A stretch of 64,000 nt of DNA. Source: Hamadaea sp. Lineage in GTDB: Bacteria; Actinomycetota; Actinomycetes; Mycobacteriales; Micromonosporaceae. Of this stretch, positions 23,032 to 45,371 are shown in pieces. Location of the stretch: the NCBI RefSeq assembly GCF_013362815.1, contig NZ_JABFVK010000049.1:62001-126000 (forward strand), in the 5' to 3' direction. A program made the position numbers and the translations under genes. The notes under the pieces were generated by a model. The model saw only the letters and a program-made list of their open reading frames with translations, made no database searches and was not told the origin of the DNA. Positions within the stretch are counted from its first letter, which is position 1; every line of letters starts with the position of its first letter.

Positions 23032-24744
<1,713 letters not shown>

Positions 24745-27667: not shown

Positions 27668-28330
27668 TCAGCGCTTGCGTACCAGGGTGACGCCGTCGGC
27701 GAACGGCAGCATCGCCAGATCCACCCGCGAGTCGCCGTGCATCGTCTCGTTGAGCCGGGCCACGGCCGTCGCATCGGCGTCGCCGGGTTCGGGGCTGAGG
27801 ACGCGCCCGAAGAACAGCGTGTTGTCGACGACCATCAGGCCACCCGGGCGCAACAGTACGAGGCACTTCTCGTAGTACTCGGGGTAGTTGGCCTTGTCCG
27901 CATCGATGAACACCAGGTCGACGCTTGCGGAGCCGTTTTCGGCCTCGAGCTTGTCGAGCGTCTCCGCCGCCGGGCCGATGCGGAGGTCGATCCGATCGGC
28001 CACGCCGGACTGCTCCCAATACGGGATGCCGAGCGCCGGCCAGCGATTGGTGATGTCGCACGTGATGAGGCGACCGTCGGCGGGCAGTGCCCGCGCCATC
28101 CACAGCGCGCTGTAACCGGTGTAGGTGCCCAATTCGAGGACCGTACGCGCTCCGCACAGCCCGACGAGGAGCGCCAGCAGCTGGCCCTCTTCGGCCATCA
28201 CCTGCATCGTCGTGCCACCGGGCAGCCCGGCCGTCTCGTCGCGGAGTGCTCGCAGGATGTCGTCTTCGCGCAGGGAGTGCTCCCGCACGTACGCGAGCAG
28301 GGCCGGAGAGCCCTCAAGCTGGCTGGCCAT
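27668..28330 (-). CDS. FkbG-like O-methyltransferase (methoxymalonyl-ACP pathway)
   Basis: 220-aa SAM-dependent O-methyltransferase of the caffeoyl-CoA/FkbG type. Motif I VLELGTYTGYSALWMARALP, and the metal/catalytic segment VDLVFIDADKANYPEYYEKC followed by LLRPGGLMVVDNTL. In this context it should methylate the 2-hydroxyl of hydroxymalonyl-ACP, giving the methoxymalonyl-ACP extender. Last gene of the fkbK-J-I-H-G-like operon; its start overlaps the FkbH-like gene by 17 bp. Confidence 0.88.
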   Translation of the reverse strand: MASQLEGSPALLAYVREHSLREDDILRALRDETAGLPGGTTMQVMAEEGQLLALLVGLCGARTVLELGTYTGYSALWMARALPADGRLITCDITNRWPALGIPYWEQSGVADRIDLRIGPAAETLDKLEAENGSASVDLVFIDADKANYPEYYEKCLVLLRPGGLMVVDNTLFFGRVLSPEPGDADATAVARLNETMHGDSRVDLAMLPFADGVTLVRKR

Positions 28331-29423
28331 GCATACCCCTCAAGTCGGGTGCGTTGAGACGGACGGTCGAGGAGGCGTCGTGCATCACGGGAACGAGATG
28401 CAGACGCTCCACATCAGACGGATCTGGCGGCGGCAGTATGCCGAGGCAGTCACAGGTATCCGTGGTGTACCCGGCGAATCGGTACGCCACTTCCATCATC
28501 CGATTGCGCTCGTTGCGCCGGAAGTCGGCGGCCAAGTGGGCGTCGGCTCGCGCCGCCTGATCGGCGATCCAGTTCAGAATCAGCGTGCCGGCGCCGAGCG
28601 ACACCACTCGGCACGACGTCGCGAGAAGTTTGAGGTTCCACACGTGCTCGTGCAGTTCCAGCAGCATCACGCCGACCGCGCCGTACGGGCCGAAACGATC
28701 GGACATCGTGACGGTCAGCACCCGATGACGCGGATCCTTCACGAGCGACGCCAGCATCTCGTGTGAGTAATGCACTCCGGTCGCGTTCATCTGACTAGTC
28801 CGCAGGGTCAACTCCTCGACCCGCAACAGCTCCTCGTCACCGGCCGGAGCGATGGTCGCCACGAGTTCCAGCGAGCGGAGGAACCGCTCGTCCGGCCCGG
28901 CGAACGTCTCCCGCTCGGCGTCGCGCCGCAGACCGGCCTGATACATCTCCCGACGCCGCCGGGAATCCTGGGTGACCACCGCGGGCGAGAACTCGGGCAG
29001 CCCGGCGAGCTCGGGCAGTTGCTCGGCGGCGTAACAGCGTACCTTCGGCAGGTGGAACTCGACCTCGGCGCGTTCGGCCGGCTGGTCGTCGACGAAGGCG
29101 ATGGTGTCCTCGGCGAACTGCAGGCGCTCGGCGATGTCGCGTACGGCGGCGGACTTGGGTCCCCAGCCGATGGCCGGGTGGACGAAGTACTCCGCGACGC
29201 CGAGCTTCTCCAGCCGCTCCCAGGCGTCCGCGAAGTCGTTCTTGCTGCAGACCGATTGCAGGATTCCCCGTGCATCCAAAGTGGAGAGTAGCGTACGCGT
29301 CTCCTCGCTGAGCTGGACGTCGTCGCCCTCCAGCAGGACCCCTTGCCAGAGCGTGTTGTCCAGGTCCCACACCAGGCACTTGACCGTCTTCGTCGGCTCG
29401 GCCACGAGCTGTCTCCCCGTCAT
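28314..29423 (-). CDS. FkbH-like HAD-type glyceryl transferase/phosphatase
   Basis: About 369-aa FkbH homologue, which recruits 1,3-bisphosphoglycerate, dephosphorylates it and loads glyceryl onto the partner ACP. HAD motif I is LVWDLDNTLWQG (DxDxT); SVCSKND supplies a conserved Cys thought to carry the glyceryl group; the C-terminal half is GNAT-like (LTLRTSQMNATGVHY). The 593-aa ORF-track entry is an upstream extension. ATG 29423 overlaps the FkbI stop by 4 bp; GTG 29405 has the better GGGGAG site and is an equally good start. Confidence 0.92.
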   Translation of the reverse strand: MTGRQLVAEPTKTVKCLVWDLDNTLWQGVLLEGDDVQLSEETRTLLSTLDARGILQSVCSKNDFADAWERLEKLGVAEYFVHPAIGWGPKSAAVRDIAERLQFAEDTIAFVDDQPAERAEVEFHLPKVRCYAAEQLPELAGLPEFSPAVVTQDSRRRREMYQAGLRRDAERETFAGPDERFLRSLELVATIAPAGDEELLRVEELTLRTSQMNATGVHYSHEMLASLVKDPRHRVLTVTMSDRFGPYGAVGVMLLELHEHVWNLKLLATSCRVVSLGAGTLILNWIADQAARADAHLAADFRRNERNRMMEVAYRFAGYTTDTCDCLGILPPPDPSDVERLHLVPVMHDASSTVRLNAPDLRGMHGQPA

Positions 29424-30544
29424 CCGTGTGCGGCTACGGCGTGCTGGGCCAGCAGCAGCTGGCAGATCTCGGTGCTGCCCTCGATGATCTCCATCATCTT
29501 GGCGTCGCGGTACGCCCGCGCGACGACGTGGCCGTCCTGCGAACCGGCGGAGGCGAGGACTTGCACGGCCGCGGACGCACCCTCCGCCGCGTGACGTGCG
29601 CTGACGTGCTTGGCGAGTACTGCGGCGAGCACCATGTCGGGTGAACGCGAGTCCCAGCTGCGGCTCGCTTCGAGGCACGCGTACGTCGAGGTGCGTTCGG
29701 CGGCGTACAGCTCGGCCAGGTGACGAGCGACCAATTGATGCTCCGCCAGCGGCTGCCCGAACTGCTTCCGAGTCCCGGCATGGGCGGCGGCGGATTCCAG
29801 GCAAGCCCGGAGGATGCCGACGCAGCCCCAGGCGACCGACATCCGGCCGTACGCCAACGCGGTGGTCACCAGCATCATCACGGGCCGGGCGGTCGCACCG
29901 AGGAGGTTGGCGGCGGGCAAGCGTACGCCGTCGAGCCGGATGTTCGCGTGCCCGGCCGCACGGCAGCCCATCGGGTCCGGGACCTTCGTCACGCGTACGC
30001 CGGGAGCATCGGACGGCACAACGACAGCCGCAGCGCCGTCGGCGTACCGGGCGACGATCACCAGGAGGTCGGCGTAGGACGCCGCCGTGGTCCACACCTT
30101 CTCGCCGGAGAGGACGATGTGATCCCCGTCGTCGTGAACCGTCGTGGTCATCCCGGCCAGATCGCTGCCCGCGTCGGGCTCGCTGAAGCCGACCGCCGCC
30201 AACCGGCCGCCGGCCAGCTCACCCAGATAGCGTCGCCGCTGGCCGAGGTCGCCGAACCGCTCGATCGTCCAGGCCGCCATGCCCACGGAGGTCATCACGC
30301 TGCGCAGGGAGCTGCAGAGCGCGCCGACGGACGCGGTGAACTCGCCGGTCTGCTCGCTGCTCAAGCCGCGCCCGCCGTACTGCCGTGGCACCTGGGTGCA
30401 CAGCAGGCCACGGCCGCCGAGCGTGCGCAGCACGTCCTCCGGCAGCCGACCCGCCAGGTCCCACTCACCGGCGCGGCCGTCGACGAGGGTGCGTACGAGC
30501 TCGACGTCGTCCGCGAGGAGCTCAGATCCCGTCGGCAGGGTCAC
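29420..30544 (-). CDS. FkbI-like acyl-CoA (acyl-ACP) dehydrogenase
   Basis: 374-aa FAD-dependent dehydrogenase. It oxidises the hydroxymethylene/aldehyde carbon of the glyceryl-ACP-derived intermediate en route to hydroxymalonyl-ACP. Visible family marks: GFSEPDAGSDLAGMTT, GEKVWTTAASYAD (FAD contacts), RKQFGQPLAEHQL and the catalytic Glu region MMEIIEGSTEI. Length is normal. Overlaps the ACP gene by 23 bp upstream and FkbH by 4 bp downstream: tight translational coupling. Confidence 0.9.
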   Translation of the reverse strand: MTLPTGSELLADDVELVRTLVDGRAGEWDLAGRLPEDVLRTLGGRGLLCTQVPRQYGGRGLSSEQTGEFTASVGALCSSLRSVMTSVGMAAWTIERFGDLGQRRRYLGELAGGRLAAVGFSEPDAGSDLAGMTTTVHDDGDHIVLSGEKVWTTAASYADLLVIVARYADGAAAVVVPSDAPGVRVTKVPDPMGCRAAGHANIRLDGVRLPAANLLGATARPVMMLVTTALAYGRMSVAWGCVGILRACLESAAAHAGTRKQFGQPLAEHQLVARHLAELYAAERTSTYACLEASRSWDSRSPDMVLAAVLAKHVSARHAAEGASAAVQVLASAGSQDGHVVARAYRDAKMMEIIEGSTEICQLLLAQHAVAAHG

Positions 30545-30827
30545 CCGCGGCCTCGCTGTCGTCCTTCAGCCGCAGCACCAGCTCGGTCATCTTGCCGATC
30601 GTGCGGAAGTTGTCCATCCGCAGGTCGGGGCCGACGATGGCGATGTCGTAGCTGCCTTCGAGGAAGACGACCAGCTGCATCGCGAACATCGACGACACCA
30701 GGCCACCGGCGAACAGGTCGGTGTCGGCCGCGCACGCCGCCTTCGTCTTCGACTTCAGGAACTCCGCGATCGTCGCCGTGACGGCCTCCGTGGTCACCGC
30801 CGACGCGGTCGCGCTCTCGATGGTCAT
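30522..30827 (-). CDS. FkbJ-like acyl carrier protein for methoxymalonyl extender
   Basis: 101-aa ACP. The phosphopantetheine site is in FAGGLVSSMFAMQLVVFLE (Ser 45/46), with the G-x-VSS variant typical of FkbJ-type carriers rather than the DSL of PKS ACPs; this sequence difference is how these ACPs are told apart. It carries glyceryl through to methoxymalonyl for an AT outside this window. Overlaps FkbK by 4 bp. Confidence 0.9.
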   Translation of the reverse strand: MTIESATASAVTTEAVTATIAEFLKSKTKAACAADTDLFAGGLVSSMFAMQLVVFLEGSYDIAIVGPDLRMDNFRTIGKMTELVLRLKDDSEAAGDPADGI

Positions 30828-31699
30828 ACGGCTGCCTTTCCGTAGTCGTAGAAGCCCCGGCCCGTCTTCCGGCCGAGGTCGCCCTCGCGTACCTTGTCGA
30901 GCAGCAGGTCACACGGGCGGCAGGCGGGCTCGCCGGTCCGCTCGTACATCGCCGCCAGCGAGTCCACGAGGTTGTCGATGCCGATGAGGTCGGCGGTGCG
31001 AAGTGGGCCGGTCGGGTGCCCGAGGCAGCCCTGCATCAGGTCGTCGACCGCTGCGACGCTCGCGATTCCCTCGCCGACGATGCGCGCCGCCGAGTTGATC
31101 ATCGGGTGGAGCAGCCGGCTCGTGACGAACCCCGGCGCGTCGCGTACGACGATCGGCTTGCGGTTCAGGCACCTCATCAGCCACTCGACGGAGCGCATCG
31201 TCGCTTCGCCGGTCCGGTCGCCCCGGATGACCTCGACCATCGAGATGGCGTACGCCGGGTTCATGAAGTGCGTGCCGACGAGGTCCTCCGGGCGCGACAC
31301 CCATTCGGCCATCTCGTCGACCGGGATGCCGGATGTGTTGGAGATCAACGGCGTACCGGGGTCCACAATGGAGGAGATTTCGCCGAGGACTTTGGCCTTC
31401 GCACTCGGCGACTCGACAACGGCCTCGACGACCGCGATCGCGCGACCGCAGTCGTTCAGATCGACCGTCGTCGTGAGCTTCCCGGGCGTACGGTCCGGCG
31501 GCACCACACCCAGCAGCGTCGCGTGCCTGGACTGCTGAGCGATCTCCGCTCGGGCCCGGCTGAGGATCGACTCGTCCAGATCGACCAGGAGGACGTCGGC
31601 CCCTTGGCAGCGCGCCATGGTGGCGATCCCCGTGCCCATGACCCCCGCGCCGATGATGGCGATCGGGCGGGCCGTCCCACCGTCTTCGCTGGCAGACAT
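30824..31699 (-). CDS. FkbK-like 3-hydroxyacyl dehydrogenase
   Basis: 291-aa NAD-dependent dehydrogenase of the 3-hydroxyacyl-CoA dehydrogenase fold: Rossmann motif IAIIGAGVMGTGIA, then SNTSGIPVDEMAEWV and GTHFMNPAYAISMVEVIRG (catalytic His). In methoxymalonyl-ACP assembly it oxidises the glyceryl-ACP hydroxyl. First gene of the fkbKJIHG-like operon. The 73-bp gap to the glutamate mutase gene holds its promoter and one ACCCCTA half-site (31769-31775). Confidence 0.9.
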   Translation of the reverse strand: MSASEDGGTARPIAIIGAGVMGTGIATMARCQGADVLLVDLDESILSRARAEIAQQSRHATLLGVVPPDRTPGKLTTTVDLNDCGRAIAVVEAVVESPSAKAKVLGEISSIVDPGTPLISNTSGIPVDEMAEWVSRPEDLVGTHFMNPAYAISMVEVIRGDRTGEATMRSVEWLMRCLNRKPIVVRDAPGFVTSRLLHPMINSAARIVGEGIASVAAVDDLMQGCLGHPTGPLRTADLIGIDNLVDSLAAMYERTGEPACRPCDLLLDKVREGDLGRKTGRGFYDYGKAAV

Positions 31700-31772
31700 G
31701 CCGCCCCTTTCCCACTCCGATACGCGATCCGACTACCGGCACGCTATTGACGGTCCTTGCGAGGGAACACCC

Positions 31773-33107
31773 CTACAGTGCGGTGCCGCCCCCTGTTATC
31801 GCGGTCGCCGAGGAGGTGCGGCTTCGCGCCGGAAGCGACGGCTGCTCGCTGTCGAACTTCTGCCGCACGTAGTTGAGATCGGCCAGCAGTCCGGACGCGG
31901 TCACCCGATGCCCGCCGACGGTGCGTACGAGCTTGCGCAGGGGCATCGCGCCGATCTCGGCCCACCGAAGCCGGCCGGTGTCGTCGATGTAGCCACGAGC
32001 CCGGCCCGCGTTGTCCGGATGCAGGCAATAGGGCACGTCGAGGTACCCGTGCTGGAAGGCGAGCACCAGTGCGCGTCCGACATCGCTGTCCAGGTTCAGC
32101 ACTGCGCTGATGAGCGCGTACGCCTCGGCATAGATCTGCGAGTCCGGCGCCGGTGGCGGCACGTCGGCGACGCCGTAGGTGCGGGCCCAGTCCTCGGCCG
32201 TCTCCAGCGCCTCGACGTTCTCCTCGATCGTGGGAATCCGGATCGACTCCGCGACCGTCTTGACGATGAGGCGTTCCGATCCGGTGGCGGCCGCGACGCG
32301 TACCGCCTCGCCGAGCAACCGGCGCGCACCGGGCGGCGTCGTCGGATACACGCCCATGTACGCATAGATCACCACGTGCCAGTCCTCGGTGGGCAGCATC
32401 TCCGCGCAGAGCCGGCGGAGCGCCCCGACCGCTTCGATGTCCTGATCGAGGCTGGTCTGCTGGGCATAGCTGACCGAAACGCTGGACACGCCCCGGGAAC
32501 AGAAGAACAACGCCTCCAAGACGGTCACCGCAACCAGCAGGCTCGGCGGGCACAGCTGCCCCATCAGGCAGCCTCCGAAGGTCTCCAGATGCGGCCGGGC
32601 GGCGGTGGTCAGCGACACGAAGAGGTCGACGCATTCCTCCCAGTTACGCACGGACTCCGCGAGCGGCGTCTGCCCGTAGGGAAGGCAGTAGGAGACCGGG
32701 CCGCCCTCGGTGGCGGTGATCCCGACCTGGGCGAGAGCGGTGAAGATGTGCTGGGGGACGGCGGATCCGTGCCGCACCTGGACCGGGAACGCCGGCTCGT
32801 GCAGATCTCGCAGAACGGCCGCCGTCGTGGCGGCGTCGTGGCTGGCGATCGGATAACCGTTGAGCCCGGTGCCGTCGCGCAGCGCCCGGCGGACCGCGTC
32901 CAGGTCGCCCACCCGGGTGAAGCTGTCCAGCGTGATGGTTCCGACGGTGGCCGCCCGCGCCCGTCTCGTGGCCAGCAATCCTGCCCGCATCTGCTCGGGA
33001 CGGCCGAAACCCATCCGCGGCTGCACCACGAGATGACCGGCCGCTCGCATCCGGCGTACGTGGCGGCCGAAGTCGATTCCCGCCGGGCTCACGGCGTCTG
33101 CGGTCAT
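31773..33107 (-). CDS. Glutamate mutase large subunit (VinI/MutE-like)
   Basis: 444-aa catalytic epsilon-type subunit of adenosylcobalamin-dependent glutamate mutase, converting L-glutamate to L-threo-3-methylaspartate. Residues RMGFGRPEQMRAGL, HGSAVPQHIFTALAQVG and GGPVSYCLPYGQTPLAESVRNW are the conserved TIM-barrel substrate/cofactor segments. The gene follows the small subunit with a 4-bp overlap. In the vicenistatin route this is the first step of the starter unit. The C-terminal tail of about 25 Ser/Thr/Arg-rich residues is extra relative to the core. Confidence 0.92.
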   Translation of the reverse strand: MTADAVSPAGIDFGRHVRRMRAAGHLVVQPRMGFGRPEQMRAGLLATRRARAATVGTITLDSFTRVGDLDAVRRALRDGTGLNGYPIASHDAATTAAVLRDLHEPAFPVQVRHGSAVPQHIFTALAQVGITATEGGPVSYCLPYGQTPLAESVRNWEECVDLFVSLTTAARPHLETFGGCLMGQLCPPSLLVAVTVLEALFFCSRGVSSVSVSYAQQTSLDQDIEAVGALRRLCAEMLPTEDWHVVIYAYMGVYPTTPPGARRLLGEAVRVAAATGSERLIVKTVAESIRIPTIEENVEALETAEDWARTYGVADVPPPAPDSQIYAEAYALISAVLNLDSDVGRALVLAFQHGYLDVPYCLHPDNAGRARGYIDDTGRLRWAEIGAMPLRKLVRTVGGHRVTASGLLADLNYVRQKFDSEQPSLPARSRTSSATAITGGGTAL

Positions 33108-33607
33108 GGCGTCAGGCTCGCCTCGATGGGCAGCCTCGACTGCCGCTCCGGCAGCGTACGCAGGAACTCGTGGAACTCGATGCCGTCCCGAGCGCCGTCG
33201 TCGAACACCGCGTCGAAGCCGCCTTCAAGCAGCTCGGCGACCCGGTCGCCCAACGGCGTACCGGTGATGCCGAGCTTGCCGCCGATGATCGTCGGCGTAT
33301 CCTTCAGGCGGTCCTCGGACCGCAGTCGGCCGATCAGCCGCAGGCCGTCCTGGCAGCCGTGCCCGTTCACGCTGCTGATGACGATCAGCGTGGGCGCGAT
33401 CCGCAGGCATTCCCGCACGAGCCGCTCGTCGGAGACGCACGAGCCGAGGTTGACGACCGAATAACCGAGCTCTTCCAGGAACAGCTGGAGGAAGACCAGG
33501 TTCCAGGTATGCGCGTCGGACGCGGTCGCGCTCACGACGACGGTTCCCAGACGAGGGACTGGTGGCGTTGCGTACGAGTTGGTTTCAGACGTCATAGGAA
33601 CGCACAT
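33104..33607 (-). CDS. Glutamate mutase small B12-binding subunit (VinH/MutS-like)
   Basis: 167-aa cobalamin-binding sigma subunit. The B12 motif reads SDAHTWN: Asp 31 and the cobalt-ligating His 33 are conserved, but the Gly of DxHxxG is Asn 36, a variation to note. VVNLGSCVSDERLV, ISSVNGHG and IGGKLGI complete the Rossmann-like fold. ATG 33607 or ATG 33595 can start it; either overlaps the decarboxylase gene. Forms a heterotetramer with the large subunit encoded next. Confidence 0.9.
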   Translation of the reverse strand: MCVPMTSETNSYATPPVPRLGTVVVSATASDAHTWNLVFLQLFLEELGYSVVNLGSCVSDERLVRECLRIAPTLIVISSVNGHGCQDGLRLIGRLRSEDRLKDTPTIIGGKLGITGTPLGDRVAELLEGGFDAVFDDGARDGIEFHEFLRTLPERQSRLPIEASLTP

Positions 33608-34793
33608 GCTCGACCCGCGACCTGGACTGGACCCGGCCGCCGCGGACGACGACCTCGAGCGGAGCCGGTCGGCCCAGGAACATCACGAGGCTCGCCGTGA
33701 GGCCGTATGCGCCGGCATTGGGGATGGCGACCAGGTCGCCCTCGCGCAGCGACGGCACGTCGATCTCGCGACCGAGCGCGTCCCCGGGTGTGCACAGTGG
33801 ACCAACGAGGCTGGCCTTCTCCACCGGTTCGCCCTCGTCGCAGCCGACGGCGACCGGCAGGAGCCGGCCGAGGCCGGACATGCCGCCGAAGGTGTTGATG
33901 CCCGCGTCGAGGATGACGAACTTGCGGCCCCGGCTGACCTTGACGTTGGTGACCCGGGTCAGCAGCTTGCCGCTCGACCCGACGAGGAAGCGCCCGGACT
34001 CGCAGGCGATGCGCGGCTGCCCGGTACGCCATTGCGGAAACGCGCGATCCAGCGCCAGTTCCAGCGCCGGACCCAGACCCGGATAGCTCTCCCGGGACCC
34101 CGGTACGCCATAAGGAGCGTTGAAGCCGCCGCCGATGTCGAGGTACTCCAGGGCGAGGTCGTGCTTGCGTTCGAGATCCAAGGCGAGCTCGATGGTGTGC
34201 TCGAAGGCGCCGATCAGACTGGCCTCGTCGAGCGCGCCGCTCAGCGGGAAACAGTGCAGCCCCCGGATGCGCGCGCCCTCGACTTCGCGAAGCCGGGGCA
34301 ACGTGTCGTCCAGCGCCTCGCTGTCGAAGCCGAACTGCGACGGTACGCCGGTCATGCGGATGCCGGTGGTCGCGTTGGCCGCGACGTTGTTGATCCGCAG
34401 CAGGCAGTCGGCGATTACGCCGTGCCGCCGTGCGACGCCCGCGACGCGCTCGAAGTCGGTGACCGAGTCCGTCGAGAACATCCGTACGCCTTGCCCGATC
34501 GCCTCGTCCAATTCGAGCGCGGTCTTGCCCGGTCCCGTGTAGAGGCAACGCTCCCCCGCGACTCCCGCCGTACGCACAGCGGCGAGCTCGCCGGAGGAAC
34601 TGATCTCGAACCGGCAGACGCGGCCCTCACCCGAAGCCAGCTCCTTGATCAGCTCCGGATGCGGGTTCGCCTTCACCGCGTAGTAGAGCTCGATCGGTTC
34701 CGGCAACGCCGCGAACGCCGCGTCCCGCGCGTCGGCGACCTCGTCGAGGTCATAGACGTACGCCGGGGTGGGCAACTCCTGGCCGCCGATCAT
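33585..34793 (-). CDS. PLP-dependent decarboxylase (VinO-like)
   Basis: 402-aa fold-III decarboxylase of the diaminopimelate/ornithine decarboxylase family. The PLP Lys lies in YYAVKANPHPELI, the phosphate-binding glycine loop in YLDIGGGFN, and the C-terminal active-site Cys in GPLCTPGD. By analogy with VinO it decarboxylates 3-methylaspartyl-ACP to 3-aminoisobutyryl-ACP. It overlaps its neighbours by 23 bp and 4 bp. Free diamino acids cannot be excluded as substrates from sequence alone, but context strongly favours the ACP-bound one. Confidence 0.88.
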   Translation of the reverse strand: MIGGQELPTPAYVYDLDEVADARDAAFAALPEPIELYYAVKANPHPELIKELASGEGRVCRFEISSSGELAAVRTAGVAGERCLYTGPGKTALELDEAIGQGVRMFSTDSVTDFERVAGVARRHGVIADCLLRINNVAANATTGIRMTGVPSQFGFDSEALDDTLPRLREVEGARIRGLHCFPLSGALDEASLIGAFEHTIELALDLERKHDLALEYLDIGGGFNAPYGVPGSRESYPGLGPALELALDRAFPQWRTGQPRIACESGRFLVGSSGKLLTRVTNVKVSRGRKFVILDAGINTFGGMSGLGRLLPVAVGCDEGEPVEKASLVGPLCTPGDALGREIDVPSLREGDLVAIPNAGAYGLTASLVMFLGRPAPLEVVVRGGRVQSRSRVEHVRSYDV

Positions 34794-36286
34794 GCCGCAC
34801 CGGTCAGGATCGCGTTCAGCGCCTCGCGCGCGTTCTTGCCGTGCGCCGTCAGCGGCAGCTCCCCGACCACCCGGCAGATCGCAGGCACCTTCGCCTTGTC
34901 GAGCCGCTGAGCCAGTTCCTTCAGCACCGTATGCGGCTCCAGCGTCGACTCGACGAAGATCACGAGATCGCGCTCGGCAGTCGGCGGCAGTACGGCGGCC
35001 GCCCGCACACCCGCGATGTCCAGCGCCGCCGCCTCGATCTCCAGGGTGCTCATGCGGATGCCCTTGCGCTTGAACATGTCGTCCCGGCGGCCCTCGAAGT
35101 ACAGGTACCCGTCGCTGTCGAGGCTGCCGTAGTCGCCGGTGTGCAGGCGCTTCTCACCCGTCGCCGGGTCCGGCCGGAACGTCTGTGCGGTCAGCTCCGG
35201 CAAGCGCCAGTAGCCGGGCATCACGTGCGGCCCGGTCACGACGATCTCGCCGACCTCACCGGTCGGCACGGGCTGCCCTTCGGAGTCGAGGATGAGCACG
35301 CGAGTGCCGGGCAGCGGAAGACCGACCGAGGTCGGCCGGAGACCGTCCTCGTCGGGGGGCACGATGGAGACACGTTTGCACTCCGTCTGCCCGAATTGGC
35401 GTACCACTCGGGTGCCTGGGAAGTTCTCGCGCAAGGCGGCGATGGTGCTGTCGGGTAGCGCGGCCCCGGTGTTCGTGAACATCCGGACCGGAGGCTTGGC
35501 CGCGGTGTCGCGTTCGGACAGTGTGACGATCATCGTCGCCAGCGACGGCACGATCGGCACCACGGTCGCGCCCACTTCGCGCATCCGCGACAAGAGCGCC
35601 AGATCGGACTCCTCCCCCGCCAGGACGAGCGTCGACCGGCCGAGGAAGCAGAGCAGGATCTTGTAGAGGCCGTAGTCCCACGAGATCGGGAACCGGCAGA
35701 ACACCACGTCGGTCGGACGGTACCCGAGGACTTGGTGGATCGACCGGGAGGCGAAGGTCATCTGCCGATGCGGGCAGATGACTGCCTTCGGCAAAGCCGT
35801 GCTGCCGGAGGTGTAGACCAGCGTGGCGACGTCGTCCGGAGCGACCTCCGCCGGAAGCTGAAGCGCCGTCCCGGCGGCCGCCACGATGGCCGGCCACAAC
35901 GTCGTCGCGTCGTGCACCGGCACCTCGGTCAGGCCGCTCAGCTTGGCGGCGGCCTCTCCGGCGGCGATCACCAGGGACGGCTCCGAGTCCGCGAGGACCG
36001 CCCGTTGATGGAACTCGCGCATGTCCTTGTTCAGCGGAACGAAGACGACGCCGAGGCGTACTGCGCCGAGGAACATCGCCACCAGCTCGTGGCGGCTCGG
36101 CAACTGGACGACGAGCCGGTCGCCCCGGCCCACGCCCTGCTCGCGCAGCCAGGCGGCGAACGCCCAACTGAGGTCGACGAGCTCGCGGTAGGTCACGGAG
36201 GCGTCGGCGTCGCGTACGGCGCAATTTCCGGGGGCCTGGGCCGCCGCCTCATCGAGCAGGGTATGCACAAGATCGCTTGCGGCCAC
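34790..36286 (-). CDS. Beta-amino acid:ACP ligase, adenylation enzyme (VinN-like)
   Basis: 498-aa stand-alone adenylation enzyme. A3 is LVYTSGSTALPKAV, A5 GQTECKRV, A7 HTGDYG, A8 GRRDDMFKRKGIRMST and A10 LPLTAHGKNAR (catalytic Lys). The residue run FPISWDYGLYK is in the substrate-pocket region and contains an Asp that could bind the beta-amino group, as in VinN. Expected role: activate 3-methylaspartate and load it on the ACP at 38250. Its stop overlaps the decarboxylase start by 4 bp. Specificity is inferred from context. Confidence 0.88.
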   Translation of the reverse strand: MAASDLVHTLLDEAAAQAPGNCAVRDADASVTYRELVDLSWAFAAWLREQGVGRGDRLVVQLPSRHELVAMFLGAVRLGVVFVPLNKDMREFHQRAVLADSEPSLVIAAGEAAAKLSGLTEVPVHDATTLWPAIVAAAGTALQLPAEVAPDDVATLVYTSGSTALPKAVICPHRQMTFASRSIHQVLGYRPTDVVFCRFPISWDYGLYKILLCFLGRSTLVLAGEESDLALLSRMREVGATVVPIVPSLATMIVTLSERDTAAKPPVRMFTNTGAALPDSTIAALRENFPGTRVVRQFGQTECKRVSIVPPDEDGLRPTSVGLPLPGTRVLILDSEGQPVPTGEVGEIVVTGPHVMPGYWRLPELTAQTFRPDPATGEKRLHTGDYGSLDSDGYLYFEGRRDDMFKRKGIRMSTLEIEAAALDIAGVRAAAVLPPTAERDLVIFVESTLEPHTVLKELAQRLDKAKVPAICRVVGELPLTAHGKNAREALNAILTGAA

Positions 36287-36351
36287 TCCAGGCTCCTCTT
36301 CGCCGAGGACACGGCAGCCGGATCAGCCACCCGGCCGCCAAGTCGAGGTCG

Positions 36352-36561
36352 TCAGTTCTCGATGAGGCTCAGGGCTCCGCCCGGGCATGCCAGCACGGCA
36401 TCCCGCACGGCGGTACGCAGGCCGGCGTCGGGCTCGGCGGTCAGCAGGATCACCCGGCCGTCGTCCTCGTCCTGGTCGAAGACGGCCGGTAGCGCCATCG
36501 CGCACGATCCGGACGCGACACAACGTTCGCGATCGATCTCAACCTTCACGACTTCGGTCAT
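36352..36561 (-). CDS. Small 3Fe-4S-type ferredoxin
   Basis: About 69-aa ferredoxin starting MTEVVKVEIDRERCVASGSCAMALP at ATG 36561 with a strong GAGGGAG site; the track's extra 12 residues have none. Only three Cys positions fit a cluster (C-x5-C, and CPGGAL near the C-terminus), the pattern of the single 3Fe-4S ferredoxins that feed P450s in actinomycetes. It sits between the two adenylating enzymes, 65 bp upstream of the VinN-like gene, so it is co-regulated with the starter genes. No P450 is in the window. Confidence 0.85.
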   Translation of the reverse strand: MTEVVKVEIDRERCVASGSCAMALPAVFDQDEDDGRVILLTAEPDAGLRTAVRDAVLACPGGALSLIEN

Positions 36562-36625
36562 GACTCCCTCTCGGCTCGCCGGACGCAGCGTGGCCACCCT
36601 AGGGAGCGCGCTGCCCGTAGCCGCG

Positions 36626-36642
36626 ACCCCTAGGAGCCCCTA
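36626..36642. promoter_or_regulatory. ACCCCTA-N3-GCCCCTA element upstream of ferredoxin/starter operon
   Basis: ACCCCTA (36626-36632) and GCCCCTA (36636-36642), 10 bp apart, overlapping the stop of the VinM-like gene and lying 65 bp upstream of the ferredoxin ATG. A related ACCCTAGGGAG palindrome is at about 36597. The same two-box layout recurs at 39561 and 44559, suggesting a cluster-specific regulator site. Confidence 0.6.
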
Positions 36643-38130
36643 AATCTCGCGGGCCGCCGACGCGAGACGAGGCCGGTCGACCTTCCGATTGGCGTTCAAC
36701 GGCAGGTCGTCAAGGTGATGAAAGGAGCGCGGGATCATGCGCTCGGGCAGGACGTCGCGGAGATGGCGTACCAGGGTCATGGCGGGCACCGGAGTTCCCG
36801 TGTAGAAGACGACCAGTTCCAGTCCACTCTCGGTCTCCCGAGTCACCGTGACCGCATCGGCGACCCCGGCACAGCCGCGTACGGCGTGGTCGATCTCGGC
36901 CAGCTCCACCCGCCAGCCCTGTACCTGCACCTGACTGTCGAGCCGGCCCAGGTACGCGTATTCGCCACCGTCGAGCCGGCGTACCCGGTCACCGGTCCGG
37001 TACCACCTCCGGCCGTCGAGTTCGAGGAATCGACCGATGCCGTCAGCCGGGTCGAGGTAGCCCGGCGTCAGCTGCGTACCGGTGACGCACAGTTCGCCGT
37101 CGCCGTCGGTGGGGCGGCCGTCCAGCCCGAGGACCAGGCAGTCGTGACCGGGGTGGATCGCGCCGATCGGCACCACGCCGTTGACCGCTCCCGCTTCGGA
37201 ACGGTCGCCTTCCCACCGGTGCCGAGAAACGGTCACGGTCAGCTCGGTCGGGCCGTACAGGTTCTCCACTCTGGACTGATCGGCGGCCAGCTGCCATTCG
37301 GCCGCATCGGAGCACCGCAAGGCCTCACCGGCGAAGAAGCTCCATCTGAGGCCGGGCAACGACCCTTCCCGCAGCCCGCCGAGACGGCGCACCAGACCGA
37401 TCGCGCTGGGCGTCGAGAACCACACCGTCATACGCCGCTCGCGTACGAAGGCCGGCAGATCACGATAGGCCTGGCCGGGCAACGGATGCACCGCCGCGCC
37501 CGCGCCCCAGGCGCAGAAGAGGTCGAACATCGCGCAGTCGAAGTTCAGGTCGAACGTCTGCGAGAAGACGTCTTCGCCGGTGAAGTCGTACCGGCTGTCC
37601 AGCAGGTCGAAGTAGTGGATCGCGTTGCCATGCGTGATCGGTACGCCCTTGGGCCGCCCGGTGGAGCCCGAGGTGAACAGCACGTACGCCACGTCCTGCG
37701 GATCGACGAGGCTGGGCTCGGTGAGCGCCCGGCCGGAGCCGAGCTCGTCCGGCAGCAGCAACGGCACCTGCGCCGTGATCTCGCCGAGCCGTCCCGCCAA
37801 CGCAGCACCTTGGTCGTCGGCGATGAGGGCGGTGACCCTTACGGCTTCCAGCATGCTCCGCAGCCGCTCCGGCGGAAATGAGGGGTTCATGGGGACGACC
37901 GGGACACCGGCATACAGCCCCGCCAGCAGACCGGCGTACGCCGCCCGGGTCTTGCCGGCCAGCACGGCGACCGGACCGACTTCGGCTCGTTCGCGAAGCC
38001 GTCCGGCCCAGGTCGACGCCGTCGCATGGAGTTCGTCATAGGTGACGGTTCCGTCCGCGGCGTACAACGCCGGCCGGGCCGGGGAAGCCGACAGCCCGCG
38101 CAGCACCCGATGGTGCAGTCCGTGGTTCAT
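36640..38130 (-). CDS. Stand-alone amino acid adenylation enzyme (VinM-like)
   Basis: About 496-aa A-domain-only protein. A3 LFTSGSTGRPKGVP, A5 NLYGPTELTVTV, A7 YRTGDRVRRL, A8-type LDSQVQVQGWRVELAEI and A10 PLNANRKVDRP are intact. By analogy with VinM it adds a protecting amino acid (alanine in vicenistatin) to the 3-aminoisobutyryl-ACP amino group. ATG 38130 (MNHGLHHRVLRGL) has a GAGGACGG site; the 743-aa track ORF extends into the opposite-strand ACP gene. Which amino acid it activates is not decided by the sequence here. Confidence 0.86.
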   Translation of the reverse strand: MNHGLHHRVLRGLSASPARPALYAADGTVTYDELHATASTWAGRLRERAEVGPVAVLAGKTRAAYAGLLAGLYAGVPVVPMNPSFPPERLRSMLEAVRVTALIADDQGAALAGRLGEITAQVPLLLPDELGSGRALTEPSLVDPQDVAYVLFTSGSTGRPKGVPITHGNAIHYFDLLDSRYDFTGEDVFSQTFDLNFDCAMFDLFCAWGAGAAVHPLPGQAYRDLPAFVRERRMTVWFSTPSAIGLVRRLGGLREGSLPGLRWSFFAGEALRCSDAAEWQLAADQSRVENLYGPTELTVTVSRHRWEGDRSEAGAVNGVVPIGAIHPGHDCLVLGLDGRPTDGDGELCVTGTQLTPGYLDPADGIGRFLELDGRRWYRTGDRVRRLDGGEYAYLGRLDSQVQVQGWRVELAEIDHAVRGCAGVADAVTVTRETESGLELVVFYTGTPVPAMTLVRHLRDVLPERMIPRSFHHLDDLPLNANRKVDRPRLASAAREI

Positions 38131-38143
38131 CCGTCCTCGCAAA

Positions 38144-38225
38144 CTAGGGGATCTGCCCGGCCGCCGTCGCGTGCTACTTTTCGCACGGCCACGCGGGTCG
38201 TATCTCGATAAACCCGTTAAACCCG
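38144..38225. promoter_or_regulatory. Divergent promoter region with CCCCTA box and AAACCCG repeats
   Basis: Between the VinM-like gene and the oppositely transcribed ACP. It holds a single CTAGGGG (38144-38150, complement CCCCTAG) 14 bp from the VinM-like start, and a direct repeat AAACCCG-TT-AAACCCG (38210-38225) 25 bp upstream of the ACP start. Confidence 0.4.
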
Positions 38226-38249
38226 ATACACGATGAATCGGAGCCGACA

Positions 38250-38498
38250 ATGAGAGATGAGCATTTCGACCAGACGCTCCGGAGCCACTTGCCGTTCCTG
38301 GGGCCGGGCGAGGCGCTGCACGACGACGCCGACCTGCGCGACCTTGGGCTCGACTCGCTGGGCACCGTGGAGCTGCTGGCGTCGCTGGAAAACCGTTACA
38401 ACGTCCGGTTCGTCGACGACGCGCTGACGCTCGAGACGTTCGCGACGCCGGGCACTTTGTGGAACACCCTTTCGCGGATGGCCGGCACCGCGTCGTAG
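38250..38498 (+). CDS. Starter-unit acyl carrier protein (VinL-like)
   Basis: 82-aa ACP with phosphopantetheine Ser 36 in LRDLGLDSLGTVELL. It is the expected carrier of 3-methylaspartate, its decarboxylated form and then the dipeptide. Starts at ATG 38250 with GGAG 9 bp upstream. Unlike every other starter gene it lies on the plus strand, alone, facing the transacylase gene (28 bp between the two stops). Confidence 0.9.
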   Translation: MRDEHFDQTLRSHLPFLGPGEALHDDADLRDLGLDSLGTVELLASLENRYNVRFVDDALTLETFATPGTLWNTLSRMAGTAS

Positions 38499-38525
38499 CA
38501 GGCATCGCGAAACCGCGGCATACCG

Positions 38526-39482
38526 TCAGGCCGCGTCGGCGAACGCACGCCGCCGGCGCGGCCGCAGGGCGGTCCGCGGCGAGATCGGTACAGTGTGGAC
38601 GTTCCGGGTGGTCACCCCGACCCGGCCGAATAGACTGTCCGGGCCGGACACGTAGACCGTCTGAACGCCCTGTGCCACCAGCGTGGCCACCACCGACGGC
38701 CAGCGCACCGGGCGGACGAACCCCTCCGACAGCATCGCCCGCACACCGGCGCCGTCGCGTACCAGCCGCCCGTCTTGATCCGCGACGATCGGGATGGCCG
38801 GATCGGCGAAGGTGAGCTGCGCGAGGACCTCCGTGTCCATCAGCTCCCGCAGACCGCCGAAGACGCTGCAATGCATCGGCGGGCGCATCACGTACAGCGG
38901 CAGCGCCCCTTTCGCCCGCAGGCTGGCGGTCAGCCGGTCCGAGACTCGTTCGCGTACCGAGATCATGTAAAGGTCGTCGTCGACGTGGCAGGACATCTCA
39001 TGCCACTCACCGTCCGCGTCGAGTTCCGCTTGCAGGGCCGCGAGCACGTCCGGCGGCGTCCGGGCGAAGGAATGCGTGATGACGTCCGTGTGCTCGGAGC
39101 TGAAGTACCGCTCCAGCACGCGCGCCCGCTGCACGGTCAGCCAGATCGCCTCCTCCACGGAGAGCACCCCCGTGTACGCCGCGGCGGCCTTGCCGCCGAA
39201 GCTCGGGCCGGCGCAGACGACCGGGCTGAGCCCGCTGGTCTCCTCCGCCCATCGAGCCAGCGCCAGGCAGACGATCAGGAACGCCACCTGGGCGTACTCG
39301 CTGTAGTCGCCGGTCGCCTCGTGATACCGGTCGAGCAGCGAGTCGCCCAGCACCTCGTCGGCGACGGCCGTCAGCTCGCGGGCGTACCGGTTGATGAGCA
39401 TGAACCTCGCGGTCTCGTCATAGCGCATCGGCCCCATGCCGGGAAAGACGATCGCGGTCGCCTCGGAAACGCCGGTCTCCAA
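38526..39482 (-). CDS. Trans-acting acyltransferase (VinK-like)
   Basis: About 318-aa malonyl-transferase-fold protein. The nucleophile elbow reads CAGPSFGGKAAAAYTG, GPSxG instead of GHSxG, as expected for VinK-type enzymes that move dipeptidyl groups instead of malonyl. SATAIVFPGMGPMRYDET marks the fold start and the C-terminal VYVSGPDSLFGRV the core end. Expected role: transfer the protected beta-aminoacyl group from the starter ACP to the PKS loading ACP. TTG 39482 has AAAGGGGG 6 bp upstream; the track's GTG 39518 lacks a clear site but cannot be excluded. Confidence 0.85.
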   Translation of the reverse strand: METGVSEATAIVFPGMGPMRYDETARFMLINRYARELTAVADEVLGDSLLDRYHEATGDYSEYAQVAFLIVCLALARWAEETSGLSPVVCAGPSFGGKAAAAYTGVLSVEEAIWLTVQRARVLERYFSSEHTDVITHSFARTPPDVLAALQAELDADGEWHEMSCHVDDDLYMISVRERVSDRLTASLRAKGALPLYVMRPPMHCSVFGGLRELMDTEVLAQLTFADPAIPIVADQDGRLVRDGAGVRAMLSEGFVRPVRWPSVVATLVAQGVQTVYVSGPDSLFGRVGVTTRNVHTVPISPRTALRPRRRRAFADAA

Positions 39483-39560
39483 CGCCTGCCCCCTTTCCGG
39501 CACGTGCTCTCGGGGCACGTACGGCCCCGCCAGGCTAAGCCGGGGCCGACTGCGCCTCCC

Positions 39561-39586: not shown

Positions 39587-42364
39587 TCAGCTCGCGATCA
39601 CCACCGGATGCCCGCCGCCCACCGCACCGTCGTCGAACGGATCTGCGTTCATCTCCACCGGAGACTCCTGTTGTCCTTCGAGTCCCGCCGACAGCCCGAC
39701 TCGGCCGCTCACGCCGAGCTTCTTGTAGACCCGGGTCAGGTGCTGTTCGACGGTGCTCACGGTGATGTAGAGGCGACGGCCGATCTCGCGATTGGTGTGG
39801 CCCCGTGCGGCGAGCGCGGCCACGCGCCGCTCGGCCTCGCTCAACGTCGCCAGGTCGTTGACCGCGACGAGCGGGCTCGGCGGAGTGGGCGCGACCTCGG
39901 CGATGACCGGCTGCGTCGCGCCGCGCAGACCGGCGTCATCGCCTTGGTACGCCTCCAGAGCGGCCAGTACGCGAGCGAGCTCCAGCCGGTCGCCCGCCAG
40001 GCGAAGAAGCGGCACCGCCTTGTTCAGCAGCCGTTCGCGCTGCCCCGCATCGCTGGCGGTGGCCAGCACCCGCAGCGAGATGCCCTGCGTCCGATAGTCG
40101 TTGGGCTGGACCTTGTCCAGCTGCTGCGTCACCAGATCCCGGGCGAGCTGGGTGTGCCCCAGCCGCACGTACGCCTCGGCGAGATCGCTGCGGATGGGGA
40201 TGAGCGCCGGCACGTCGATGCCACGCTCGCTCATCAGCTCGCCGCAGAACTGGAAGTCCCGGGCGGCGGCCAGCACCCGGTTGTCCGCCAGGTGGTAGTG
40301 GCCGCGAGCGTGCAGGTAACGCAGTCCGGCGATGGAGGTGAACATCGCGTCCGGCACCATTTGCGCGAACGTCTTGTCGGCGGAGTCCAGCTTGCCCTTC
40401 GCGGTGTTGGCCAACGCCTGCGTGGCCAGCGGCCAGCCGACGAGCACTCCCCAGCACCGCGCGTCGAGGAGCCCCAGCGCCGTGACCGAGTCGGCGAGCG
40501 CCTTGTCGATGTCGCCGCTGCGCAGCGCGATCTCAGCCTGGATGTTGTAGAGCAGGGCCTGCCACGTGACCGCGTTGCGCCGCGAGGCGTGTTCCATCAG
40601 CCGCTGACACCACACGGACGCCCGATCGAGCGCGCCACCGCAGACGAGCGCCAATAGCGCGCCGGTGACGACATCCACTGTGGAGTCCTCGAGGGAACAG
40701 CTGTGCAGCAGGTGCTCGGCGCTGGCGACGGCGGCCTCGCCCGGGCCGTCGGCCCACATGTAGGTGAGCGTTCGCAACGCGGTCACCCACGGGTCGTCCG
40801 ACCGCTCCTGGGTGGTCGCCGACCCGGCCGAACCGTACCCGCCGGGCTCCTCGCCGTAGATCACGTGCCGGGCGAGGTCCAGTTCGGCCAGCACGCGCTT
40901 GTCACCCGGGTGCGGCGCGCGTTCCAGCGCCGCGACCGTCTTGTCGACCAAGGCGTTGTCGCCGTGCCACAACCCGTGGCGGAGCAGGGTGACCGCCTGG
41001 CGGCCGGAGAGCTTGCCGAGTTCCGCCGCGTCCTCCAGAACGCTCAGGTACGGCGCGACGGCCAGCGGCGCGTTACGCCACATCGCGCGGGTTAGGGCTT
41101 CGGTGATGACGACGCGCTCGCGGTCGTCCGCCGTCGCCGCCAGCGCCAGCTTCAGATAGCGGATGGCCAGATCGCTCTGCTCGCCGGTCATCGTCTCCGC
41201 CGCGGCGGCCTGGAGCATCAGCACCGGCCAGCCGCCGGTCACGTGACCGGACTCGGCGATGTGCGCCGCGACGTCGACGGCGGGACAGTTCTGCTGATAG
41301 AGCAGCTCGGCCGCCCGGCTGTGCAGAGCGGAGCGCGCGCAGGCGCTGAGCGTGCCGAGCGCGACCGCACGAGCGGCCTCATGACGGAACCGGCCGTCGC
41401 AGAGCACCCCGGCGAGGGCCAGGATCTCCATGATCTCCACGACGGAGGTCTGCCCGATGTCCAGCAGCCGCGACAGCGACTGAGGCGTGGCGTGCTTGTC
41501 GAGCACCGCGATCCCCTGTGCGACCGTCAGCAGCTGCGGGAACCAGCGGTGCAGGCAGGTGGCGATCGCCTGGCTGAACGCGGCGCCCACGACCGGCCGG
41601 CCCTCGTCTTTGAGCCGGCCGTCGCGCATCGCCGTGCGGTAGTCCTCCATGAGCGCGTTGACCAGCATCGGATTGCCGCCGGTCAACCGGTGATACGCCG
41701 GTGCCAGGTGTGCCGCGGCAGTCGGCCCGGCCGCCTTGGTCAGGGCCTCCGCGATCGCCGGTCCCGACATCGGCAGCAGCCGGAGCCGATGATGCGGCTG
41801 CCGGGTCAGCTCGGCGTGGAACTGCGAGTGCTCCGGCCGTGGGCGCTCGCATTCGGTCAGCACCATCATCACCGGCGCCGCGGCGATCCGCCGTCGCATG
41901 TAGAGCAGCAATTGCAGAGACGCGCTGTCGATGTGGTGCACGTCGTCCACCACGATGACGAGCGGCCGGTCGAGCGAGAGGCCCAGCACCGCACCGCACA
42001 ACGCCTGCACGACCTGCACGACGGCGTACGCCGCCAGGAACGAGCCGTCGTCGGCGACCGAGTCCATCGCCTCGGCCCGGGTCAGGTCGGTGAGGCGCTG
42101 GAGGACCTCCTTGGGCAGCTCGGCGCTGCGCAGGAGCTGGTCGATGACGCCGAACTGGACCGGCCGCTCGGTCAGCGACCCGGCGGCGGTGAGGACGAGT
42201 GCACCCGCTGCCGCCGCCGCGCTGGAGAACTCGTGCATGAGCGTGGTCTTGCCGGTCATCAGGCCCCCGCTGACCAACACGACCTGCCCTGCTTTGTCGG
42301 TGATGCGGGTGAGGAGCCTCTCCAGCATCAGCCTGCCGTCGCGGATCCCGACGTAGTTCGTCAT
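39587..42364 (-). CDS. LAL-type LuxR-family transcriptional activator
   Basis: 925-aa pathway-specific regulator of the large ATP-binding LuxR type. Walker A is SGGLMTGKTTL (residues 32-42), Walker B LVIVVDDVHHID (about 136), a long TPR-like middle follows, and a C-terminal LuxR HTH (LSEAERRVAALAARGHTNREIGRRLYITVSTVEQHLTRVYKKLGV, about residues 835-895). Walker A reads GGLMTGKTT, a G/A-rich variant of GxxxxGKT. It sits between starter and exporter genes and is the obvious activator of the cluster. ATG 42364 has GGGAG upstream. The 754-bp leader carries no gene. Confidence 0.92.
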   Translation of the reverse strand: MTNYVGIRDGRLMLERLLTRITDKAGQVVLVSGGLMTGKTTLMHEFSSAAAAAGALVLTAAGSLTERPVQFGVIDQLLRSAELPKEVLQRLTDLTRAEAMDSVADDGSFLAAYAVVQVVQALCGAVLGLSLDRPLVIVVDDVHHIDSASLQLLLYMRRRIAAAPVMMVLTECERPRPEHSQFHAELTRQPHHRLRLLPMSGPAIAEALTKAAGPTAAAHLAPAYHRLTGGNPMLVNALMEDYRTAMRDGRLKDEGRPVVGAAFSQAIATCLHRWFPQLLTVAQGIAVLDKHATPQSLSRLLDIGQTSVVEIMEILALAGVLCDGRFRHEAARAVALGTLSACARSALHSRAAELLYQQNCPAVDVAAHIAESGHVTGGWPVLMLQAAAAETMTGEQSDLAIRYLKLALAATADDRERVVITEALTRAMWRNAPLAVAPYLSVLEDAAELGKLSGRQAVTLLRHGLWHGDNALVDKTVAALERAPHPGDKRVLAELDLARHVIYGEEPGGYGSAGSATTQERSDDPWVTALRTLTYMWADGPGEAAVASAEHLLHSCSLEDSTVDVVTGALLALVCGGALDRASVWCQRLMEHASRRNAVTWQALLYNIQAEIALRSGDIDKALADSVTALGLLDARCWGVLVGWPLATQALANTAKGKLDSADKTFAQMVPDAMFTSIAGLRYLHARGHYHLADNRVLAAARDFQFCGELMSERGIDVPALIPIRSDLAEAYVRLGHTQLARDLVTQQLDKVQPNDYRTQGISLRVLATASDAGQRERLLNKAVPLLRLAGDRLELARVLAALEAYQGDDAGLRGATQPVIAEVAPTPPSPLVAVNDLATLSEAERRVAALAARGHTNREIGRRLYITVSTVEQHLTRVYKKLGVSGRVGLSAGLEGQQESPVEMNADPFDDGAVGGGHPVVIAS

Positions 42365-44606: not shown

Positions 44607-45371
44607 ATGATGGCGACAGTAGGTCTTTCCGCCGACGCTTGGCTGCGGCGTTTTCATCCCAAGAGCGCCGCCGGGGACGTCGTCGTGTGCTTCCCGCACG
44701 CGGGCGGCTCGGCGAGCTATTACTTTCCCTTCTCCGCCGCCATGCCGCCCGACGTCGACATGCTGACGATCCAGTATCCGGGGCGGCAGGAGCGGCGTGC
44801 CGAGCCGCCCGTCGAGTCCGTGCCGGAACTGGCCGATCAGATCGCCGAGCTGCTGGCCGGCTGGGCGGACAGCCGGCTGACCTTCTTCGGGCACAGCATG
44901 GGCGCGACCGTGGCGTTCGAGGTCGCCCGGCGACTGGAGGCCGGCGGAATCGCCGTGCACGGGCTGTTCGCGTCAGGCCGCCGAGCCCCGTCGACCCACC
45001 GCGTCGAGGGTCTGCACCTCGGCAGCGACGCCGCACTCATCGCCGAACTGCGGGATCTGAGCGGGATGCCGGTCGAGCTGCTCGCCGATCCGGAGGTCGT
45101 CCAGCTGATCCTTCCGGTGCTGCGCAACGATCTGCGGATCGCGGAGACCTATCGCTACGAGCCGGACGGCAGCGAGTTGCGCTGCCCGATCGTGGCGCTC
45201 GTCGGCGACCAGGATCCCAAGGTCGAGGTCGCCGAGGCCGCGGCCTGGCAGCGGCACACCACCGGCACGTTCGAGCTGCGTACGTTCTCCGGCGGGCACT
45301 TCTTCCTCGTCGAGCACAAGGCGGCGGTCGTCGAGGCTGTCACGAAGCACGCAGTCGCACGGAACTTCTGA
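44607..45371 (+). CDS. Type II thioesterase
   Basis: 254-aa editing thioesterase of the alpha/beta-hydrolase fold. VVCFPHAGGSASYY starts the fold, the nucleophile Ser is in FFGHSMGATVAFE, and the His is in GGHFFLVEH. Type II enzymes clear mis-primed or decarboxylated acyl groups from PKS carrier domains. It is discrete, not fused to the PKS, and so is not the macrolactam-forming thioesterase. ATG 44607, weak ribosome site. Confidence 0.92.
   Translation: MMATVGLSADAWLRRFHPKSAAGDVVVCFPHAGGSASYYFPFSAAMPPDVDMLTIQYPGRQERRAEPPVESVPELADQIAELLAGWADSRLTFFGHSMGATVAFEVARRLEAGGIAVHGLFASGRRAPSTHRVEGLHLGSDAALIAELRDLSGMPVELLADPEVVQLILPVLRNDLRIAETYRYEPDGSELRCPIVALVGDQDPKVEVAEAAAWQRHTTGTFELRTFSGGHFFLVEHKAAVVEAVTKHAVARNF

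Follow-up and report, generated by a model that had tools for sequence, protein, structure and literature searches.

A vicenistatin-type starter cassette beside a methoxymalonyl-ACP operon in Hamadaea sp. points to a large methoxylated macrolactam

Do genes for a vicenistatin-type beta-amino acid starter and genes for a methoxymalonyl extender, found side by side on one contig of Hamadaea sp., serve a single macrolactam, and if so, of what kind? The stretch of DNA analysed here, hereafter the window, is 64,000 nucleotides long (GCF_013362815.1, NZ_JABFVK010000049.1, positions 62,001 to 126,000 of the forward strand) and is part of a contig that we call C36. Judged from sequence, it probably belongs to a type I modular polyketide synthase (PKS) cluster for a large polyene-type, approximately 30-membered macrolactam, primed with 3-aminoisobutyrate and bearing one methoxy carbon. 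The starter and extender genes lie in the window as follows.

38526..39518, minus strand: vinK homologue with GPSFG active site (best PDB matches 5czc and 5czd, VinK and VinK-VinL, E 2.5e-116)
38250..38498, plus strand: vinL homologue, discrete starter ACP (PF00550; GLDSLGTVELL motif)
36640..38130, minus strand: vinM homologue, A-domain enzyme (PF00501)
36352..36561, minus strand: ferredoxin gene between both A-domain genes (PF13459/PF13370)
34790..36286, minus strand: vinN homologue, predicted 3-methylaspartate adenylation enzyme (best PDB match 3wvn, VinN, E 1.8e-184)
33585..34793, minus strand: vinO homologue, PLP-dependent decarboxylase (diaminopimelate-decarboxylase-like family; 54-70% identity to vin-cassette relatives)
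33104..33607, minus strand: vinH homologue, glutamate mutase S (cobalamin) subunit (NF002612, E 6e-15)
31773..33107, minus strand: vinI homologue, glutamate mutase E subunit (TIGR01503, E 3e-49; 57-65% identity to relatives)
30824..31699, minus strand: fkbK, 3-hydroxyacyl-CoA dehydrogenase-type enzyme (NF004474, E 4e-71; place conserved in fkb operons)
30522..30827, minus strand: fkbJ, dedicated ACP (ACP families; place conserved in fkb operons)
29420..30544, minus strand: fkbI, acyl-ACP dehydrogenase (best PDB match 1r2j, FkbI, E 3.9e-136)
28314..29423, minus strand: fkbH, HAD-type glyceryl transferase (TIGR01686 FkbH, E 6.3e-104, above the curated cut-off)
27668..28330, minus strand: fkbG, O-methyltransferase (PF01596, E 3e-67; best PDB matches are O-methyltransferases)

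The glutamate mutase pair and homologues of VinN, VinO, VinM, VinK and VinL are all found in this run, and by their E values the matches to VinN, VinK, FkbI and FkbH are far above chance. Every vin-type gene that the earlier note had named is present where it had been placed, VinN and VinK with their own PDB structures as matches (3wvn and 5czc). The discrete starter ACP reported there was also recovered, on the plus strand and not, like the other named genes, on the minus strand; the same opposite-strand position of vinL recurs in the loci of several relatives. The ferredoxin gene is an addition to the earlier list. In the relatives' loci L099, L116 and L144 its position is occupied by a P450-ferredoxin pair, and the ferredoxin is the probable partner of a P450 encoded on another contig of the cluster, C57. 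The vinM homologue, mostly 53-63% identical to the proteins at the VinM position of other complete vin cassettes, is by homology the candidate for the enzyme adding the protecting alanyl residue. The pocket of the vinN homologue keeps the equivalents of D230 and K330-R331, and carries Y for F231 and T for S299, two substitutions which residue comparison found to be common to the 76 vin-cassette relatives compared. The cobalamin motif reads DxHxxN rather than the textbook DxHxxG in 93 of 94 VinH-type homologues, and is a trait of the subfamily. Genes overlap by 4-23 bp within vinN-O-H-I and again within the contiguous five-gene set fkbK-J-I-H-G, and a gap of just 73 bp separates vinI from fkbK. 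That a complete FkbK-J-I-H-G set directly follows the starter genes, as had been claimed, is borne out, with all five genes identified. Operons for the same five enzymes serve FK520/FK506, geldanamycin and ansamitocin (fkbG-K, asm13-17), in combination with macrolide or ansamycin PKSs and other starters.

The assembly line that these genes would feed extends over three contigs. The flanking genes that bear on its reconstruction are listed here.

39587..42364, minus strand: large LuxR-type (LAL) regulator (PF13191 and PF00196; homologues in the NBC_01306 and WMMA1423 clusters)
44607..45371, plus strand: type II thioesterase (PF00975, E 1e-54)
45456..47042, minus strand: MFS exporter (PF07690; homologue in related clusters)
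47193..57395, minus strand: PKS, modules 4-5, KS-AT-DH-KR-ACP twice (Pfam domains; AT motifs HAFH then YASH, malonyl then methylmalonyl)
57402..64000, minus strand: C-terminal part of the loading PKS, end of module 2 and module 3 (Pfam domains), leaving contig C36 at 128351 inside KS2
L011:7078-8241 (contig C57): VinJ-type deprotecting amidohydrolase homologue (best PDB match 3wmr, E 2.9e-140)

Contig C36 ends 2.35 kb past the window, within a PKS gene. The 10.9-kb contig C57 carries the thioesterase-bearing end of one PKS, the VinJ homologue, the P450 and the opening portion of another PKS; this portion is the N-terminus of the loading PKS and comprises its loading ACP and module 1. A third contig, C68, shares at its end an exact in-frame overlap of 87 bp with C57, and joining the two gives an open PKS of 1998 aa that ends in a thioesterase. 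On the other side, C57 and C36 break at opposite sides of a presumed single KS domain, KS2, and we infer that they adjoin across this unbridged gap. Repeated KS DNA often breaks short-read assemblies. The reconstruction adds to the starter genes three further features of a vicenistatin-type system: VinJ, an N-terminal loading ACP without a loading AT, and a terminal thioesterase. Just outside the cluster, at 23122-24744, the sequence reads as an alpha-galactosidase-like secreted glycoside hydrolase with C-terminal lectin-like repeats. Elsewhere in the genome, on contig C51, there is a lone single-module PKS (KS-AT-DH-KR-ACP; L012 1104-9532), with neighbouring genes for an AMP ligase and an O-methyltransferase; it apparently belongs to another cluster.

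By the domain map of the three contigs, the loading ACP is followed by 13 extension modules, distributed over the PKS genes as 3+2+2+1+4+1. Nine ATs have the malonyl motif HAFH (modules 1-4, 7, 8 and 10-12), three the methylmalonyl motif YASH (modules 5, 9 and 13), and the AT of module 6 reads MRWAVPDVDFAAH. Module 7 is without a KR and module 8 has only a KR. The DTACS active site is kept in all 12 readable KS domains, KS2 being hidden by the gap, and the ACP serine motif is present in every module. Some reductive domains have degenerate sites, namely the DH of module 6 (P to A), the DH of module 9 (catalytic D to E) and the KRs of modules 9 and 10, where the catalytic serine is Gly/Ala (C68, L016-L017), and the exact reduction pattern is therefore uncertain. 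The catalytic serine is Ala in both orthologous modules (9 and 10) of the Actinomadura cluster described below, which suggests a conserved change in reduction at this point. The docking ends, by our reading, fall into two classes: the C-terminal type of the loading gene and of C68c pairs with the starts of the C36 gene and of the last gene, and the ends of C36, C68a and C68b pair with the starts of C68a, C68b and C68c, respectively. This compatibility supports the colinear order loading gene, C36, C68a, C68b, C68c and last gene.

Whether the methoxymalonyl unit would be used by this assembly line turns on module 6, the AT of which is the only one in the cluster to carry an FAAH motif with a one-residue insertion. 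According to a review (PMC8944477), FAAH replaces YASH or HAFH in an AT responsible for a methoxy branch. The module 6 AT was set against ATs close to the fkb genes in seven FkbH-positive relatives, with ATs remote from fkb genes serving as controls. In five fkb-linked PKS clusters, one AT apiece had the one-residue insertion together with an F-x-A/G-H motif, and none of the 15 readable control ATs had the FAAH-like motif with the insertion, one control (c_G047) having the insertion with a different motif. In the other two FkbH-positive genomes, G283 and G320, the motif was absent from the ATs sampled, which are part of their ATs. The motif-bearing ATs, that of module 6 and the single FAAH AT of Streptomyces sp. 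NBC_01306 form one clade in a quick tree. An AT of the methoxymalonyl subtype is found in the same cluster as the fkb operon, and the evidence that the module 6 AT would use methoxymalonyl is good but indirect. A second AT subtype (FPGLGAEWPG ... VDYAPHS) was seen near fkb genes in L064 (G312) and in L192 (S. geranii, at approximately 182.4 kb in contig coordinates); the G312 copy sits in the FAAH clade, and this subtype may also be methoxymalonyl-specific.

These observations are consistent with the following pathway. Glutamate mutase (VinH/VinI) would produce 3-methylaspartate, which VinN would load onto the discrete ACP VinL and VinO would decarboxylate to 3-aminoisobutyryl-ACP; VinM would then cap the starter amine with alanine, and VinK would move the resulting dipeptide off VinL and onto the PKS loading ACP. 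The 13 modules would extend the chain, nine of their ATs being predicted to select malonyl and three methylmalonyl units, with FkbH, I, K and G making methoxymalonyl on FkbJ for acceptance by the AT of module 6. VinJ would remove the alanine and the terminal thioesterase would close the amide, after which the P450 and ferredoxin may oxidise the product. A 3-aminoisobutyrate starter and 13 extensions closing on nitrogen would give a ring of 30 atoms (1 + 3 + 26, that is N, 3 starter carbons and 2 x 13), with a single methoxy carbon near the middle. The combination of a methyl-branched beta-amino starter with a methoxy-bearing carbon, proposed earlier from the window, thereby gains the support of the VinJ homologue, the loading ACP, the thioesterase and the AT subtype of module 6. 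Vicenistatin itself, from Streptomyces halstedii, shares VinH to VinO, the loading ACP, the thioesterase and the 3-aminoisobutyrate logic (PMC11284099), but is a glycosylated 20-membered ring (8 extensions by our own count) whose extender units are malonyl and methylmalonyl, whereas the cluster described here has 13 modules, an fkb operon and no nearby sugar genes.

Two uncharacterised clusters resemble the one in Hamadaea. In Actinomadura sp. WMMA1423 (NZ_CP041244.1, approximately 1.476-1.563 Mb) a contiguous 12-module cluster has the vin and fkb sets, the P450-ferredoxin pair and the LAL, MFS and type II thioesterase genes, and it agrees in the FAAH AT of module 6, the YASH ATs of modules 5 and 9, the keto-type module 7, in which the KR is without the catalytic tyrosine motif, and the DH-less module 8. 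It differs in gene-block order, in having one module fewer in the four-module gene (3+2+2+1+3+1 versus 3+2+2+1+4+1, gene by gene) and in its last AT, which is malonyl and not methylmalonyl. The best match in WMMA1423 was at the same position for 9 of 12 KS domains. This is independent support for the way in which the three contigs were joined here, and it implies that one module has been gained or lost. Literature on this strain was limited, in our search, to reports of madurastatins. Streptomyces sp. NBC_01306 (NZ_JAPEPC010000001.1, approximately 1.096-1.160 Mb) has vinJKLM-(P450-Fdx)-NOHI-fkbKJIHG in one run, and shares the vinK-to-fkbG order and a single FAAH AT; it differs in having 9 modules (22-membered), a penultimate methoxymalonyl AT and vin genes of another vin clade.

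It might be argued that the fkb genes are passengers, or supply a different PKS in this strain, so that the macrolactam would have no methoxy group. Other clusters of the family do have fkb genes without vin genes, and in several of its vin cassettes a P450, not fkb, follows vinI. However, among the ATs of the cluster that holds the operon a single one belongs to the fkb-associated subtype, as is also true of WMMA1423 and NBC_01306, the vin+fkb clusters that were examined whole, and we regard a passenger operon as improbable. More open is the size of the ring, which module skipping or iteration would alter. The degenerate DH and KR domains of modules 6, 9 and 10, and the 12 modules of the WMMA1423 orthologue, which make module number evolutionarily fluid, favour a product in which one module is skipped or inactive, or one that is smaller or linear. 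Against this stand the intact DTACS of the readable KS domains, the ACP serine motif throughout, and 13 colinear modules with compatible docking classes; a ring of other than 30 members, or a linear product, is rather unlikely in our estimation.

A known compound of the incednine, sipanmycin or silvalactam type, 24-membered and glycosylated, is the least likely product, and we consider it highly improbable. Incednine does join a beta-amino starter to a C-2 methoxy group (PMC5797532), in line with the earlier association of methoxymalonyl units with such macrolactams, but its starter route is a different one: the incednine starter is 3-aminobutyrate, made from beta-glutamate by IdnL4 and IdnL3, a glutamate 2,3-aminomutase route and not glutamate mutase (PMC11284099), whereas the window encodes glutamate mutase, a VinN-like enzyme and a VinO-type decarboxylase. 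In addition, a 24-membered ring needs 10 modules and the cluster has 13; incednine is diglycosylated, with its methoxy group at the last unit, and here the methoxy group is predicted at module 6 of 13. No deoxyaminosugar or glycosyltransferase genes occur in the annotated flanks on C36 and C68, and the macrolactam is probably not glycosylated. The kenalactams (22- to 32-membered) were also considered as a known match and set aside, the text consulted giving no link to methoxymalonyl units. The class is already known, through vicenistatin starter chemistry and the beta-amino starter and methoxy group of incednine. For the specific pairing no product was found: no compound joining 3-aminoisobutyrate and a methoxymalonyl unit was described in the mostly open-access literature searched, and the earlier failure to match a specific compound is repeated here.

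How widespread is the pairing? Of 354 genomes of the family, a VinK homologue occurs in 39, among which 17, the Hamadaea genome included, also carry a VinI homologue; in the others no FkbH was found near VinK or VinI. When genome contigs were searched for VinI with a family alignment, 506 candidates were obtained and 80 kept (a single-protein scan gave none), and vin and fkb genes lay within 10 kb of each other at 3 of these 80 loci. The pairing is nevertheless not near-unique, a view that we rejected when a search of whole genomes placed FkbH on the vin contig of Actinomadura WMMA1423, of Streptomyces hyderabadensis and of S. geranii, the last two having both cassettes on a single contig. At least four other genomes have the pairing on one contig, and since they depend on how far contigs reach, such counts are lower bounds; for none of these genomes did the literature searched yield a product. 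Plasmid records gave partial matches only, at 72-78% identity. Nocardia tenerifensis, the sister of the Hamadaea locus in the vin tree, has its vin and fkb genes on separate contigs. A single vin+fkb fusion held in common with NBC_01306 is unsupported in approximate trees of few sequences, where the vin genes of the latter fall in another clade and its fkb genes do not pair with those of Hamadaea. In Streptomyces sp. NBRC 110028 (L110) and S. glaucescens NRRL B-2706 (L156), fkbG/fkbHIJK adjoin vinO-H-I, L156 adding vinM and vinN; neither locus has vinK or vinJ or a PKS match, and an ATP synthase operon follows a few genes downstream in L110.

If this reading is correct, the cluster is a specific starting point for the isolation of a large macrolactam with a methoxy group. 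The macrolactam class includes antifungal and antitumour members. The FAAH motif with one extra residue would be a usable marker for methoxymalonyl modules, and the 12- and 13-module clusters would form a matched orthologous pair for studying the evolution of macrolactam ring size. On balance we lean towards an undescribed family of 28- to 30-membered, 3-aminoisobutyrate-primed macrolactams, methoxylated in mid-chain and distributed over Micromonosporaceae, Actinomadura and, with some probability, both Nocardia and Streptomyces. Ring size in this family would have changed as one PKS gene acquired or shed a single internal module.
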